From Burkholderiaceae bacterium (GTDB lineage Bacteria; Pseudomonadota; Gammaproteobacteria; Burkholderiales; Burkholderiaceae_C), in the NCBI GenBank assembly GCA_013360485.1, contig JABWBN010000016.1:1-36177 (forward strand): a stretch of DNA of 36,177 nucleotides, in the 5' to 3' direction. The first letter of the stretch is position 1; every line of letters begins with the position of its first letter. The position numbers were made by a program, and so were the translations under genes. The notes beneath the pieces were generated by a model. The model saw nothing but the letters and a program-made list of their open reading frames with translations, was not told where the DNA came from and did not search any database. This document shows positions 10,402 through 14,708 of the stretch, piece by piece.

Positions 10402-11706
10402 ATGACGCAAGCAGTATTTCGTCGCATTGCCCGCGCGGGCGTCCTGGTCGCCTGTCTTTCCGTTGCCTGGTTCCGTGCGCAGGCGCAGCAAACCGAACCG
10501 GTCACCGAGCCGGTGCGCCTGGCCATGATCGAAGGGCTGTCCGGCCCGTTTGCCAATGCCGGCGAGGCCGTGTTCCGCAATCTGCACTGGGCCATCGAGC
10601 GGGTCAATCAGCGCGGTGGTGTCAGGATGCCCGGCGGGGCCAGGAAGCTTGAACTGGTTCGCATGGACAGCAAGGGCAACGCTGACGAGGCCTTGTCGAT
10701 GTTGCGCAGTGCCGTCGACCAGCGCATCGGCTTCGTGCTCCAGGGCAACAGCTCTGCGGTCGCATCGGCGATCATCGATGCACTGAACAAACACAACGAG
10801 CGCGACCCGGCGCGCCGGGCGCTGTTCCTCAACTATTCGGCGGTCGAGCCGGCGCTGACCAACGAGCGGTGCAGCTTCTGGCACTTCCGATTCGACGCGC
10901 ACGCCGACATGCGGCTGGCGGCGCTGATGGATGTGCTCAAGGATGACGCCGCGCTGCGCAAGGTCTACCTGATAGGGCAGGACTACAGCTTCGGGCAATA
11001 CGTGGTCAAGCAGGCGCGTTCATTGATCCAGGCGCGCAGGCCCGATGTCGAGATCGTGGGTGAGGAACTGCATCCCATGGCTCGGGTCAAGGACTTCCTG
11101 CCTTACGCCAGCAAGATCCGCGCGAGCGGGGCCCAGGCGGTGGTCACGGGCAACTGGGGCAATGACCTCACGCTGCTGGTCAAGGCCGTGCGCGACCTGG
11201 GCGTGCCGGTGAAGTTCTATACCTTCTACGGCAACGCGCTGGGGGTGCCAGCCGCGCTGGGCGAAGCCGGCGTGGGTTCGGTGCTGGCGGTTGCCGAGTG
11301 GCATGCCAACGTGGCTGGCGAGCCCTCGCGCTCGTTGGTTTCGGCCTTTCGCAAGCGCTACCCGGATCCTCGCGACGACTACCTGCATGCCCGGATGCAA
11401 TCCATGATCGAGATGGTGGTTCAGGCCATGGAACGTGCGCGCAGCGTCGATCCCGTCGCGGTGGCGCATGCGCTCGAGGGCGCCCGACTGGACGCCGCCG
11501 CTTTGGGCGGCGTGCACGAAGGGCTGATGCGGGCCGATGACCACCAGTTCCAGCAACCGCTGGTAGTGATGCAGATGGATCGGGTGGGCTCGCCGGGTGT
11601 TGTTTTCGACGTCGAGGGCTCGGGCTATGGATTCCGCACCCTGCGACGCTACGACGCTGGCCAGATGGCAATGGCTCACACCTGCCGGATGGTGCGGCCC
11701 CAGTAG
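10402..11706 (+). CDS. Periplasmic substrate-binding protein, branched-chain amino acid (LivK) type
   Basis: The gene encodes a 434-residue secreted binding protein with a type 1 periplasmic binding fold. Residues 1-28 form a signal peptide with basic start (FRRIAR), hydrophobic core and an AQA cleavage site before QQTEP. The mature part begins [23 protein letters not shown], typical of Leu/Ile/Val- or urea-type ABC binding proteins. No permease or ATPase gene is adjacent, so it is an orphan component or a sensor. The ligand cannot be told from sequence. The 184-base region before it holds a TAGAAT -10-like box (10284-10289) and a 6-bp GC hairpin (10235-10249), both weak. A strong hairpin begins directly after its stop. 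Confidence 0.85.
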
Positions 11707-11737
11707 CTGCCACCGCCGGCCCAGCCGGCGGTGGCAG
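11707..11737 (+). terminator. Perfect 14-bp hairpin after the binding-protein gene
   Basis: The bases 11707-11720 and 11724-11737 are exact complements, with a three-base CCA loop, and begin right after the TAG stop. It is very GC-rich but lacks a T tract downstream, so it may act as a weak terminator or as a 3'-end stabiliser. Its 15-base apex is repeated in the rpsO-pnp spacer at 12310-12324. Confidence 0.6.
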
Positions 11738-11767
11738 TGCGGCGGCGCCTGGGACGACGGATGCGGC

Positions 11768-11773
11768 TATAAT
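11768..11773 (+). promoter_or_regulatory. -10 element of the rpsO promoter (TATAAT)
   Basis: A consensus TATAAT lies 170 bases before rpsO and points to transcription starting near 11780. The -35 region around 11745-11750 (GCGCCT) is poor. The predicted start coincides with the 5' side of the first leader hairpin. Confidence 0.65.
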
Positions 11774-11777
11774 CGAC

Positions 11778-11942
11778 GGGCTTTGCCCTTGGCCACGCGG
11801 ATTGTCGCGCGCGTCGAGGGCAGAGCCTAGGCACGGCGCGGGTCGGTTTCACCCGCGTCCGCAAGTGGCAACCGAAACCGTTACGTCTGCATGGGCAGTC
11901 TGCCCGGCAGCGTCGCGCGGTTTCTCCAATCAGGAAATCGAC
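11778..11942 (+). promoter_or_regulatory. Structured rpsO leader RNA, candidate S15 autoregulatory element
   Basis: The roughly 163-base leader contains several pairings I checked by hand. Stem A is 11778-11790 with 11816-11828 (13 pairs including G-U). Stem B is 11835-11843 with 11851-11859 and has a 7-base loop CGGTTTC (11844-11850). The loop is exactly complementary to GAAACCG at 11874-11880, so a pseudoknot is possible. A second CGGTTTC (11918-11924) can pair with the same GAAACCG. Alternatively 11918-11925 pairs with 11933-11940 (8 pairs, two G-U), hiding the ribosome site AGGAAA. A 5-bp hairpin lies at 11893-11905. S15 represses its own translation through leader RNA in many bacteria, so this is a plausible regulator. 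No experimental support is available here. Confidence 0.6.
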
Positions 11943-12212
11943 ATGTCCAACGCTGACATCAACCGCGCCGAGATCCTCAAGACGCACGCCCGTGCGGCCA
12001 ACGACACCGGCTCTCCCGAAGTGCAGGTTGCGCTGCTCACCGCGCGCATCAACGAACTCATGCCGCACTTCAAGACCCACCAGAAGGACCATCACGGCCG
12101 CCGCGGCCTGCTGAAGATGGTGAGCCGCCGTCGCAAGCTGCTCGACTATCTGAAGGACCGCGATGCCAGCCGCTACACAGCCCTGATCCAGAAACTGGGT
12201 CTGCGCAAGTAA
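11943..12212 (+). CDS. rpsO: 30S ribosomal protein S15
   Basis: S15 is a primary 16S rRNA-binding protein of the small-subunit platform and commonly represses its own mRNA. The 89-residue product has the family length and motifs ([22 protein letters not shown], split here as INELMPHF and [12 protein letters not shown]; then [12 protein letters not shown] and a C-terminal GLRK). ATG 11943 follows AGGAAA at 11932-11937 with good spacing. An in-frame extension upstream to 11802 would run through the structured leader and is not the start. pnp follows after a terminator-like hairpin, the same gene order as in E. coli. Confidence 0.98.
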
Positions 12213-12224
12213 GCAACCCATGAC

Positions 12225-12264
12225 CGAAAGAGCCTGTCTGGACCGACCAGCACAGGCTCTTTCG
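12225..12264 (+). terminator. rpsO-pnp spacer terminator (probably partial)
   Basis: A perfect 13-bp stem pairs 12225-12237 with 12252-12264. The loop holds an additional CTGG/CCAG mini-stem, and TCTTT follows. The AAAG/CTTT ends and T-rich tail fit an intrinsic terminator. As in E. coli rpsO-pnp, some polymerases probably read through into pnp, because I see no obvious separate pnp promoter. Confidence 0.8.
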
Positions 12265-12295
12265 TCTTTGGAGCCTCCCGATCCAGTCGCTGCTG

Positions 12296-12340
12296 TGTCA
12301 TTCCACCGGCGCCGGCCCAGCCGGTGCCGCTGGAATGGCA
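12296..12340 (+). promoter_or_regulatory. Long near-perfect hairpin in the pnp leader, candidate RNase III site
   Basis: Bases 12296-12316 pair with 12320-12340 around a CCA loop: 21 positions with one C-C mismatch and one or two G-U pairs. Such a long duplex upstream of pnp resembles in position the RNase III-cut stem through which E. coli PNPase controls its own mRNA. The equivalence is inference. Confidence 0.6.
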
Positions 12341-12381
12341 TGCCGCCGGACGGGGCCAGCCGGCTCCCGGTGAAATCCCGT

Positions 12382-12407
12382 CAGGGCGCCACCGCAAGCG
12401 CGCCCTG
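12382..12407 (+). promoter_or_regulatory. 8-bp hairpin just before the pnp ribosome site
   Basis: CAGGGCGC (12382-12389) is the exact complement of GCGCCCTG (12400-12407), with a 10-base loop. It ends 8 bases before the GGAGA ribosome site of pnp (12416-12420). It may help shape the leader; no function is shown. Confidence 0.45.
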
Positions 12408-12428
12408 CGCAAACCGGAGACATCATCC

Positions 12429-14708
12429 ATGAGCATGTTCAAGAAGGTTACCAAGACGTTCCAGTGGGGTCCGCATCAGGTCACGCTCGAGACCGGCGAA
12501 ATCGCACGCCAGTCCAGCGGTGCGGTGCTGGTCGATATCGAAGGCACCGTCGTGCTGGCCACCGTCGTGGCCCGGACCGAGGCCAAGGCCGGGCAGGACT
12601 TCTTCCCCCTGACGGTCGACTACATCGAGAAGACTTACGCAGCCGGCCGCATCCCCGGCAGCTTCTTCAAGCGCGAGGGCCGGCCCAGCGAACTGGAGAC
12701 CCTGACCAGCCGACTGATCGACCGCCCGATTCGTCCGCTGTTCCCCGATGGCTTCTTCAACGAAGTGCAGGTGGTCATTCACGTGCTGAGCCTGAACCCC
12801 GAGGTGCAGGCCGACATCGCTGCCATGATCGGTACCAGCGCCGCGCTGGCCGTGTCCGGCCTGCCGTTCAATGGCCCGATCGGTGCCGCTCGCGTGGGCT
12901 ACATCAATGGCGAGTACGTCCTCAACCCGGGCAAGATCCAGTTGGCCGACAGCAAGCTCGATCTTGTGGTGGCCGGCACCGAGACGGCCGTCCTGATGGT
13001 GGAGTCCGAGGCCGACCAGCTCAGCGAAGAAGTGATGCTGGGCGCGGTGGTTTATGGCCACGACATGGGCAAGGTGGCCATCGCGGCGATCAACGATCTG
13101 GTGCGCGAGGGCGGCAAGCCCGAGTGGAACTGGCAGGCGCCGGCAAAGGACGAGGCTTTCATCGCCAAGGTCAACGCGCTGGCCGAAGGCCCGCTGCGCG
13201 CGGCTTACCAGATCCGCAGCAAGCAGGCCCGCACGCAGGCCTGCCGCGAGGCCTATGCAGCGGTCAAGGCCGCCTTGGCCGGCGAAGGCGCAGCCTTCGA
13301 CGAAGTCAAGCTCGAGGGCCTGTTGTTCGAGATCGAATCGCGCATCGTGCGCGGCCAGATCCTGGCCGGTGAGCCGCGCATCGACGGACGCGACACCCGC
13401 ACCGTGCGCCCGATCGAGATCCGCACCGGCGTGCTGCCACGCACACATGGTTCGGCGCTGTTCACCCGTGGCGAAACCCAGGCGCTGGTGATCTCCACGC
13501 TCGGCACCGAGCAGGACGCGCAGAAGATCGACGCCCTGGCCGGCGAGTTCCAGGATCGCTTCCTGTTCCACTACAACATGCCGCCGTTCGCCACTGGCGA
13601 AACCGGCCGCGTGGGCAGCCCCAAGCGCCGCGAGATCGGTCACGGCCGCCTGGCCAAGCGTGCACTGGTTCCCCTGCTGCCCGCCCGTGACGAGTTCCCC
13701 TACACGCTGCGCGTGGTCAGTGAGATCACCGAGTCCAACGGCTCGTCCTCGATGGCTTCGGTGTGCGGCGGCTGCCTGGCCCTGATGGACGCGGGCGTCC
13801 CCATGAAGGCCCACGTGGCCGGCATTGCGATGGGCCTTATCAAGGAAGGCAACCGCTTCGCGGTGCTGACCGACATCCTGGGCGACGAGGATCACCTCGG
13901 CGACATGGATTTCAAGGTCGCCGGCACCACCAGCGGCGTCACTGCCCTGCAGATGGACATCAAGATCCAGGGCATCACGCAGGAAATCATGCAGGTGGCG
14001 CTGGCGCAGGCCAAGGAAGCGCGCATGCACATCCTGGGCAAGATGCAGGACGCTGTGGGCGGCGCCAAGACCGAGTTGTCGCAGTTCGCGCCGCGCCTTT
14101 ACACGATGAAGATCAACCCCGAAAAGATCCGCGACGTGATCGGCAAGGGTGGGGCGACCATCCGCGCGCTGACCGAGGAGACCGGCACGACGATCGACAT
14201 CGCCGAGGACGGCACCATCACCATCGCGTCGACCGATGGCGACAAGGCTGCGCTGGCGCGCAAGCGCATCGAGGACATCACGGCCGAGGCCGAGGTGGGC
14301 GCCATCTACGAAGGCCCGATCACCAAGATCCTCGAGTTCGGTGCTCTGGTCAACATCCTGCCGGGCAAGGACGGCCTGCTGCACATCAGCCAGATCGCGC
14401 ATCAGCGCGTCGAGCGGGTCGAGGACTTCCTCAAGGAAGGTCAGGTCGTCAAGGTCAAGGTGCTCGAGACCGACGACAAGGGGCGCATCAAGCTCAGTCT
14501 GAAGGCGCTGCTCGACCGACCCGAGGGCATGGAAGAGGAGCGCTATGAGCGCGCGCCGCGAGGCGATCGCGGTGACCGTGGCGAGCGTCGCGAGCGCGGA
14601 GAGCGCCCGCCGCGGCGTGAGCGCAGCGATCGTCCCGAGCGCGCCGAGCAGGGGCGCGAGGCGGGGCCCGCGAGCGATGCGTCGGACGCGGGCTCCCAGC
14701 AGCAGTAG
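12429..14708 (+). CDS. pnp: Polyribonucleotide nucleotidyltransferase (PNPase)
   Basis: PNPase is a trimeric 3'-to-5' phosphorolytic exoribonuclease of the degradosome. The 759-residue protein contains two RNase PH-like domains separated by a helical domain, with the catalytic aspartates D486 and D492 in [12 protein letters not shown] at E. coli positions. A KH domain follows (about 557-617, [13 protein letters not shown]), then an S1 domain (about 625-695, [19 protein letters not shown]). The last 60 residues are a low-complexity tail rich in Arg, Glu, Gly and Asp that makes it about 48 residues longer than the E. coli enzyme. ATG 12429 follows GGAGA at 12416-12420; ATG 12435 is less likely. 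The upstream hairpins suggest autocontrol. Confidence 0.98.

Follow-up and report, generated by a model that had tools for sequence, protein, structure and literature searches.

The window, which is the whole 36,177-nt stretch of DNA analysed here, comes from a draft genome of 378 contigs (G000) and carries rpsO, whose product matches solved chains of ribosomal protein S15 (best E 7.7e-34); the nearest named S15, from an Aquabacterium MAG, is 96% identical. The gene that follows (12324-14708, or from a later start) looks like one for polynucleotide phosphorylase (pnp), its translation having been judged by eye. A probable -10 promoter element precedes the leader (Table 1); it would place the transcription start near 11780 and give a leader of about 160 nt. 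Similar boxes precede the leaders of many relatives (uncounted), and a consensus promoter scan returned no promoter-like site. No terminator-like site was found by a scan of 11600-12450. In the gap from rpsO to pnp, a perfect inverted repeat of 11 bases (AAAGAGCCTGT/ACAGGCTCTTT, 12227-12262) was missed by that scan and is likely a terminator or a processing site. Two intergenic palindromes seen by eye on either side of rpsO (11707-11737 and 12299-12337) have the same centre, GGCCCAGCC; the first of them matches itself on the opposite strand.

Three short elements of the leader can pair in alternative ways. The original prediction had placed one CGGTTTC in the loop of hairpin B, GAAACCG at element C and a second CGGTTTC at 11918-11924 within element E, and all three lie exactly there. 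The hairpin that it described over the ribosome site, made of 8 pairs between E and F, is also present. Two of these pairs are G-U (G11920-U11938 and U11925-G11933). The segment 11915-11945 adopts this hairpin at -7.1 kcal/mol, with the GGA of the Shine-Dalgarno (SD) sequence AGGA paired. Element C ends 51 nt 5' of the SD sequence. Folding of the whole leader, when compared with shuffled sequences, gave a z of -4.88. Among 20000 dinucleotide-shuffled versions of 11859-11942, 199 contained GAAACCG, 248 contained CGGTTTC and 4 had both in this order, the heptamer for this count having been picked after the fact.

Table 1. Elements of the rpsO leader and adjoining features in the window
Feature	Position	Strand	Remarks
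TATAAT, putative -10 promoter element	11768-11773	+	probable; read from the sequence
Hairpin A (5')	11778-11828	+	minimum-energy fold; sequence variable in relatives
Hairpin B	11834-11861	+	stem 11834-11843 with 11851-11861, bulge at 11858
Loop of B, CGGUUUC	11844-11850	+	5' strand of the putative pseudoknot
Linker, CAAGUGGCAACC	11862-11873	+	12 nt; long pseudoknot loop, would cross stem B
Element C, GAAACCG	11874-11880	+	partner of the loop of B or of E; look-alike of the SD region (GGAAAC)
Hairpin D	11883-11913	+	between C and E; predicted fold; variable, length differs among relatives
Element E, CGGUUUCU	11917-11925	+	11917-11924 with C (11874-11881); 11918-11925 with the SD region (11933-11940)
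Element F	11932-11940	+	SD sequence AGGA (11932-11935) and the bases after it
rpsO	11943-12212	+	ribosomal protein S15, 89 aa; ATG at 11943

To follow these elements among relatives, 215 rpsO leaders were parsed, of which 207 are distinct over their last 140 nt. A hairpin of the form CACG...[GA]GTTTC...CGCNNGT occurs in 77 of the 207, and the conservation of these letters is no evidence, as they were set by the search pattern. Element C is present in 70 of the 77 leaders with this GUUUC-type loop; those lacking it are L006, L066, L067, L068, L074, L180 and L218. Within the genus of the window, all 21 leaders have hairpin B, with its GUUUC loop, followed by C. Among 74 sampled leaders from other genera of the family, the loop is found in 36 and B followed by C in 34; this sample began as 80 hand-picked genomes, complete for the most part and generally one from each genus, of which 79 had S15 and 78 gave a leader that could be read, and 4 leaders chosen for a pattern match were then removed. 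Named genera with C include Aquabacterium, Methylibium, Piscinibacter, Sphaerotilus and Inhella.

The elements differ in how strictly their letters are kept. C, itself found by pattern, reads GAAACC in 61, GGAACC in 7 and GAGACC in 1 of 69 leaders. Of the 70 leaders with C, 65 show a counterpart of E by a loose pattern and 5 have no recognisable E; the second CGGTTTC is poorly kept in letters, with GGTTTC in 23 of the 70. Both copies of CGGTTTC had been expected to persist in close relatives; the loop and C do so in 21 of 21, but the second copy keeps GGTTTC in only 6 of 21, the remainder having GG[ACG]TTCC (11), GGC?TTTCC (3) or a looser form (1). Judged by eye, these variants in the genus remain able to pair with C, if imperfectly owing to a mismatch or a bulge, and with the SD region. 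F reads GGAAAC in 35, GGAAAT in 16 and GGAACG in 10 of the 70 leaders with C. C keeps GAAACC in most leaders while E varies, often mismatching C, as if a second, fixed partner held C. The linker between B and C is 11-16 nt long in 63 of the 70 leaders, longer in 3 and 5-7 nt in 4, each of these last four, measured to the first C found, having a second GRAACC farther downstream.

Other forms of the leader were noticed in the course of this comparison. L053 (named Sphaerotilus) and L156 are shortened leaders with C directly 5' of the SD sequence and no E. Comamonadaceae-type leaders from other genera (L029, L092, L104, L168) have the CACG...CGCNNGU hairpin base in common, with UUCC in the loop, and some carry a 5' GGUUUUGC together with AAAACC after GCAAGU; they possibly form a three-way junction and represent a second type of S15 leader. 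Inspection by eye also suggested, for several leaders from other genera, a closing helix of 5' GGUUUU with AAAACC after GCAAGU, which would give a three-way junction like that of 16S rRNA; it was rejected for the class of the window, where it is inconstant.

A covariance model of B plus C (R1, built from 59 sequences) was used to search 40 chosen genomes, 21 of the genus and 19 others, with 148 first-look candidates scored per genome. At E of 0.01 or less, it gave 31 matches in 30 of the 40 genomes, and 30 of the 31, in 29 of the 30 matched genomes, lie directly 5' of rpsO. The exception, in G065, is weak (E 0.0073) and not so placed. The genome of the window has a single match, directly 5' of rpsO, and G027, which has two rpsO genes (C1 near 2369253 and 4358263), has a B-C leader and a match before each. 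Because many of the searched genomes supplied sequences to the model, the counts of presence are not independent, and it is the rarity of other matches that is informative. The location of 30 of the 31 matches at rpsO fits an autogenous signal.

The original prediction called for compensatory changes in rpsO leaders of relatives, and covariation or coupled change was found for stem B, E:F and C:E, while B:C proved too invariant for the purpose. In stem B, 98.1% of cells are paired over 53 distinct rows, and 8 of the 10 pairs have changed on both sides, with 54 such cells against 10.4 in shuffles; the covariation score is 0.432, compared with 0.177 in shuffled alignments (reached in 0 of 500) and 0.04-0.10 when the strands are slid. 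As the MAFFT alignment broke the register of the helix in the E-F stretch, partner-swap tests were used there instead of pair counts. Native E:F duplexes are more stable than those with permuted partners among 59 representatives (z = -6.0, 0 of 5000). With the anti-SD core cut out and only the flanks compared, z is -8.0 (0 of 10000, n = 57, two without the anchor dropped), and under stricter thinning it is -5.6 (n = 33, one dropped) and -2.9 (n = 16).

For C:E, partner permutation gave z = -4.2 (0 of 5000, n = 59), -3.9 (n = 34) and -2.9 (n = 16). With flanks only, z moved from -2.9 to -2.6 to -0.1 as thinning rose, the C flank against the E flank being not significant at the strictest level (4295 of 10000, n = 16), and in many relatives C:E contains a mismatch or a bulge. 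The control pairs (C:F, C flank:F flank, hairpin B:F, -56..-28:F and -60..-32:C) gave z from -1.4 to +0.6. Swaps between nearest relatives were added to lessen the effect of shared descent. In 32 such pairs for E:F, the native partner was better in 21 and the swapped one in 7, with 4 ties (one-sided p = 2e-4); in 33 pairs for C:E, the numbers were 16, 12 and 5 (p = 0.017). Among the controls, C:F gave 11 to 15 with 6 ties and -60..-32:F gave 15 to 16 with 1 tie. One control was the exception, -60..-32:E being significant (21 to 9, 3 ties of 33, p = 0.01), and we attribute this to hairpin D reaching into the E window. Overall, coupled change is strong for stem B and E:F, and moderate for C:E.

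The B:C pairing has no covariation test of its own, since both strands are nearly invariant within the class (partner swap, z = -0.9), and its support consists of co-occurrence and spacing. Of the 77 leaders with a GUUUC-type loop, 67 have GRRACC no more than 12 nt from hairpin B, compared with 2 of the 114 usable among 130 leaders with other loops, related species being counted separately. C can pair with the loop of B in 69 of 69 leaders, which holds partly by construction because a GRRACC-type pattern search defined C. Together, the comparisons support the existence of three mutually exclusive helices, B:C, C:E and E:F, upstream of rpsO, the last two of which change in a coupled way across genera.

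The consequences of occupying C were then modelled in the 68 long-tailed leaders that carry C (the short L053 and L156 being omitted), using an energy model without pseudoknots and, as control, blocking of equal stretches of D. The minimum-energy fold of the free window leader contains the C:E helix (11874-11881 with 11917-11924, probability 0.99), as had been proposed for the state without S15. The accompanying proposal that the ribosome site is open in this state held only in part: the GGA of the SD sequence is paired with UCC at 11925-11927, and its accessibility of 0.31 indicates a weakly paired site rather than an open one. On the other hand, the proposal that a freed E hides the ribosome site was borne out in the folding model, in which blocking C raised the E:F probability in the window from 0.39 to 0.99 and lowered SD accessibility to 0.02. 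Over the 68 leaders, mean SD accessibility was 0.40 when free, 0.18 with C blocked and 0.30 with the control block, and mean E:F probability rose from 0.33 to 0.68 (control 0.49). With C blocked, SD accessibility fell by more than 0.05 in 45 of the 68 leaders and rose in 4, while E:F probability rose by more than 0.1 in 46, fell in none and showed no such rise in 22. The C:E probability is at most 0.5 in 25 of the 68, and in L105 and L163 E:F is predicted already with C free. In the window, the C:E state (-54.0) is about 7 kcal/mol better than the state with the SD sequence closed (-46.7), the pseudoknot being uncounted, so that the closed state needs help from S15 or from the order in which the leader is transcribed; the B:C duplex amounts to -8.0 kcal/mol with no penalty included.

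Both E. coli and M. smegmatis have an rpsO leader pseudoknot through which S15 represses, and in the E. coli operator S15 recognises and stabilises a pseudoknot with a connecting loop of at least 9 nt (PMC8470358 and PMC4684408). The window resembles this operator (RF00114) in having a hairpin loop with a complementary element downstream, which may form an H-type pseudoknot, and an alternative two-hairpin fold before rpsO. Its connecting loop of 12 nt, like those of the 66 of 70 leaders with at least 11 nt, is above the E. coli minimum. Unlike in E. coli, the pseudoknot would lie away from the ribosome site and the coding start, and its effect would pass via a second element, E. The E. coli U-G/C-G motif of stem 1 is absent from stem B of the window, which has no G-U pair, and a G-U beside a G-C occurs in stem B of 43 of 69 aligned leaders. 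Where the E. coli operator has A in loop 1, the window has C, and this first loop position is C in 53, U in 14 and A in 2 of the 69. In translational riboswitches, one strand pairs either with the SD sequence or with an antisequester, under the control of an upstream bound domain. In the window, by comparison, the ligand would be a ribosomal protein, and C would be an antisequester that is both a pseudoknot strand and a look-alike of the SD region.

The rpsO leader of M. smegmatis also has a predicted pseudoknot 5' of the start codon, which is required for repression by S15 (PMC8470358), but the accessible description, by which the two are set apart, gives no element that chooses between the SD sequence and a decoy. 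Compared in the same manner, by description, the leader of Rhizobium radiobacter and other Alphaproteobacteria shares with the window a conserved hairpin (H1) with a conserved loop, followed by a linker that is long in about half of them and then by H2, typically with the ribosome site; unlike for the window, no pairing of the H1 loop with the linker is described in the accessible part of PMC4137082. Neither a betaproteobacterial S15 leader nor the B-C-E-F layout is described in the accessible parts of PMC7247131 (its leader table included), PMC4137082, PMC4684408 and PMC8470358, and no such leader appears, judging by titles and the opening of abstracts, among the literature matches listed, which cover papers outside subscription.

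An Rfam 15 search of the leader returned no family at the gathering score; with the threshold relaxed to E 5, the sole match was a Pyrobaculum snoRNA family (E 1.9), which is at chance level. RF00114 was accordingly rejected as the home of the window leader, having no match at either the gathering score or E up to 5. Of 60 genomes of the order, 7 have an RF00114 match above the cut-off and 16 reach E 0.001, the genome of the window having none; the Saezia leader L009 scores 30 bits, below the cut-off. Weak matches to RF00114 at rpsO may partly reflect S15 codons, because the model includes coding bases.

In an ungapped alignment with the reference chain u481, which we take to be the E. coli protein, the S15 of the window keeps His42 and Asp49, and has Gly in place of Ser52 and Lys in place of Arg58. 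These four residues belong to the description of the E. coli system, in which Ser52 and Arg58 are reported to act, at positions reported to contact the operator (PMC8470358). Among 22 distinct S15 stretches from genomes of the class with C, Gly52 occurs in 21 and Lys58 in 15, and among 41 accompanying other leaders the corresponding numbers are 23 and 20.

We propose, with fair but far from full confidence, that the rpsO leader works as an RNA switch on translation initiation, in which S15 holds the B:C pairing, the freed E covers the SD sequence and translation of rpsO falls, S15 thereby probably limiting its own production. Hairpin B and C would make up an H-type pseudoknot, with GAAACC bound to the loop GGUUUC, and this is taken here as the S15 operator. 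Without S15, C would pair with E in a long hairpin enclosing D, leaving the SD sequence only weakly paired; excess S15 would hold the pseudoknot, and E would be released to pair with F, giving less translation of rpsO. C looks like a copy of the SD region, and E would choose between the true site and the decoy. Because the polymerase makes B and C ahead of E, S15 could act co-transcriptionally. We infer the formation of the B:C pseudoknot, the identity of S15 as the ligand, its favouring of B:C and repression as the output; for the repressive direction we rely on the E. coli and mycobacterial systems, in which S15 represses by way of rpsO pseudoknots (PMC8470358 and PMC4684408).

The alternative that survives best, although we consider it unlikely, is an operator more like that of E. 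coli, in which the B:C pseudoknot, held by S15, alone obstructs the ribosome, E:F sets a low basal level and C:E is a spacer. Such an arrangement would suit L053 and L156, where B and C stand beside the SD sequence with no E, as well as L105 and L163, where E:F is predicted with C free too. In the window, however, 51 nt separate C from the SD sequence, and coupling is seen in both C:E and E:F, two helices sharing E that would be unexpected for a spacer; moreover, SD accessibility falls in 45 of 68 leaders when C is blocked. A different signal might act on the same helices, with temperature melting E:F or another protein or a small RNA taking C. Some RNA thermometers consist of a short hairpin with an A/U-rich core. 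The E:F hairpin is also short with such a core, yet we find this explanation improbable, given that 30 of 31 R1 matches lie directly 5' of rpsO, as fits an autogenous signal, and that leader pseudoknots are targets of S15 in E. coli and in mycobacteria (PMC8470358).

It would be more surprising still if S15 stabilised the opposite state, C:E with a more open SD sequence, or if control acted on the stability of the message instead of its translation. Sequence comparison does not fix the direction, but the S15 leaders with experimental tests repress (accessible parts of PMC4684408 and PMC8470358), and the scan of 11600-12450 found no terminator-like site. Chance complementarity in a G+C-rich leader is hardly credible, for the joint occurrence of both heptamers in the tail shuffles, rare but not impossible in one sequence, has to be set against C in 70 of 77 leaders, the covariation and the specificity of R1.

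Beyond the switch proposed for the window, the comparison raises the question of how such a layout arose. In L180, which lacks C, the loop is changed to CAGUUUC and can form 9 pairs with the SD region of the same leader (-14.2 kcal/mol); among other leaders without C, pairing of the loop with the SD region amounts to -7.2 kcal/mol in L067 and -6.0 kcal/mol in L006. The idea that leaders without C generally trap the SD sequence directly with the loop was rejected, as permutations were as good as native partners in 1365 of 10000 trials (n = 121), and in 420 (n = 65), 207 (n = 44) and 4128 (n = 17) with smaller sets; an older direct pairing of this kind may be no more than a possible origin. We therefore put forward only tentatively, and think it slightly likelier wrong than right, that there is a Burkholderiales class of S15 leader in which a decoy, C, separates the S15 pseudoknot from the true SD sequence, S15 takes the decoy and E moves to the SD sequence, with an older state, in which the loop pairs with the SD sequence, represented by L180, Thiomonas and L218.

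S15 is a model for how one ribosomal protein can be read by unrelated leader RNAs. The layout described here would be a variant of the known regulation by S15 through leader pseudoknots, resembling the E. coli operator while lacking an Rfam match. The relay through a decoy, if true, would show how a leader can separate the part that binds the protein from the ribosome site. As the family apparently holds other forms of the leader, some short without E and some without C, the evolutionary path between them is open to study.
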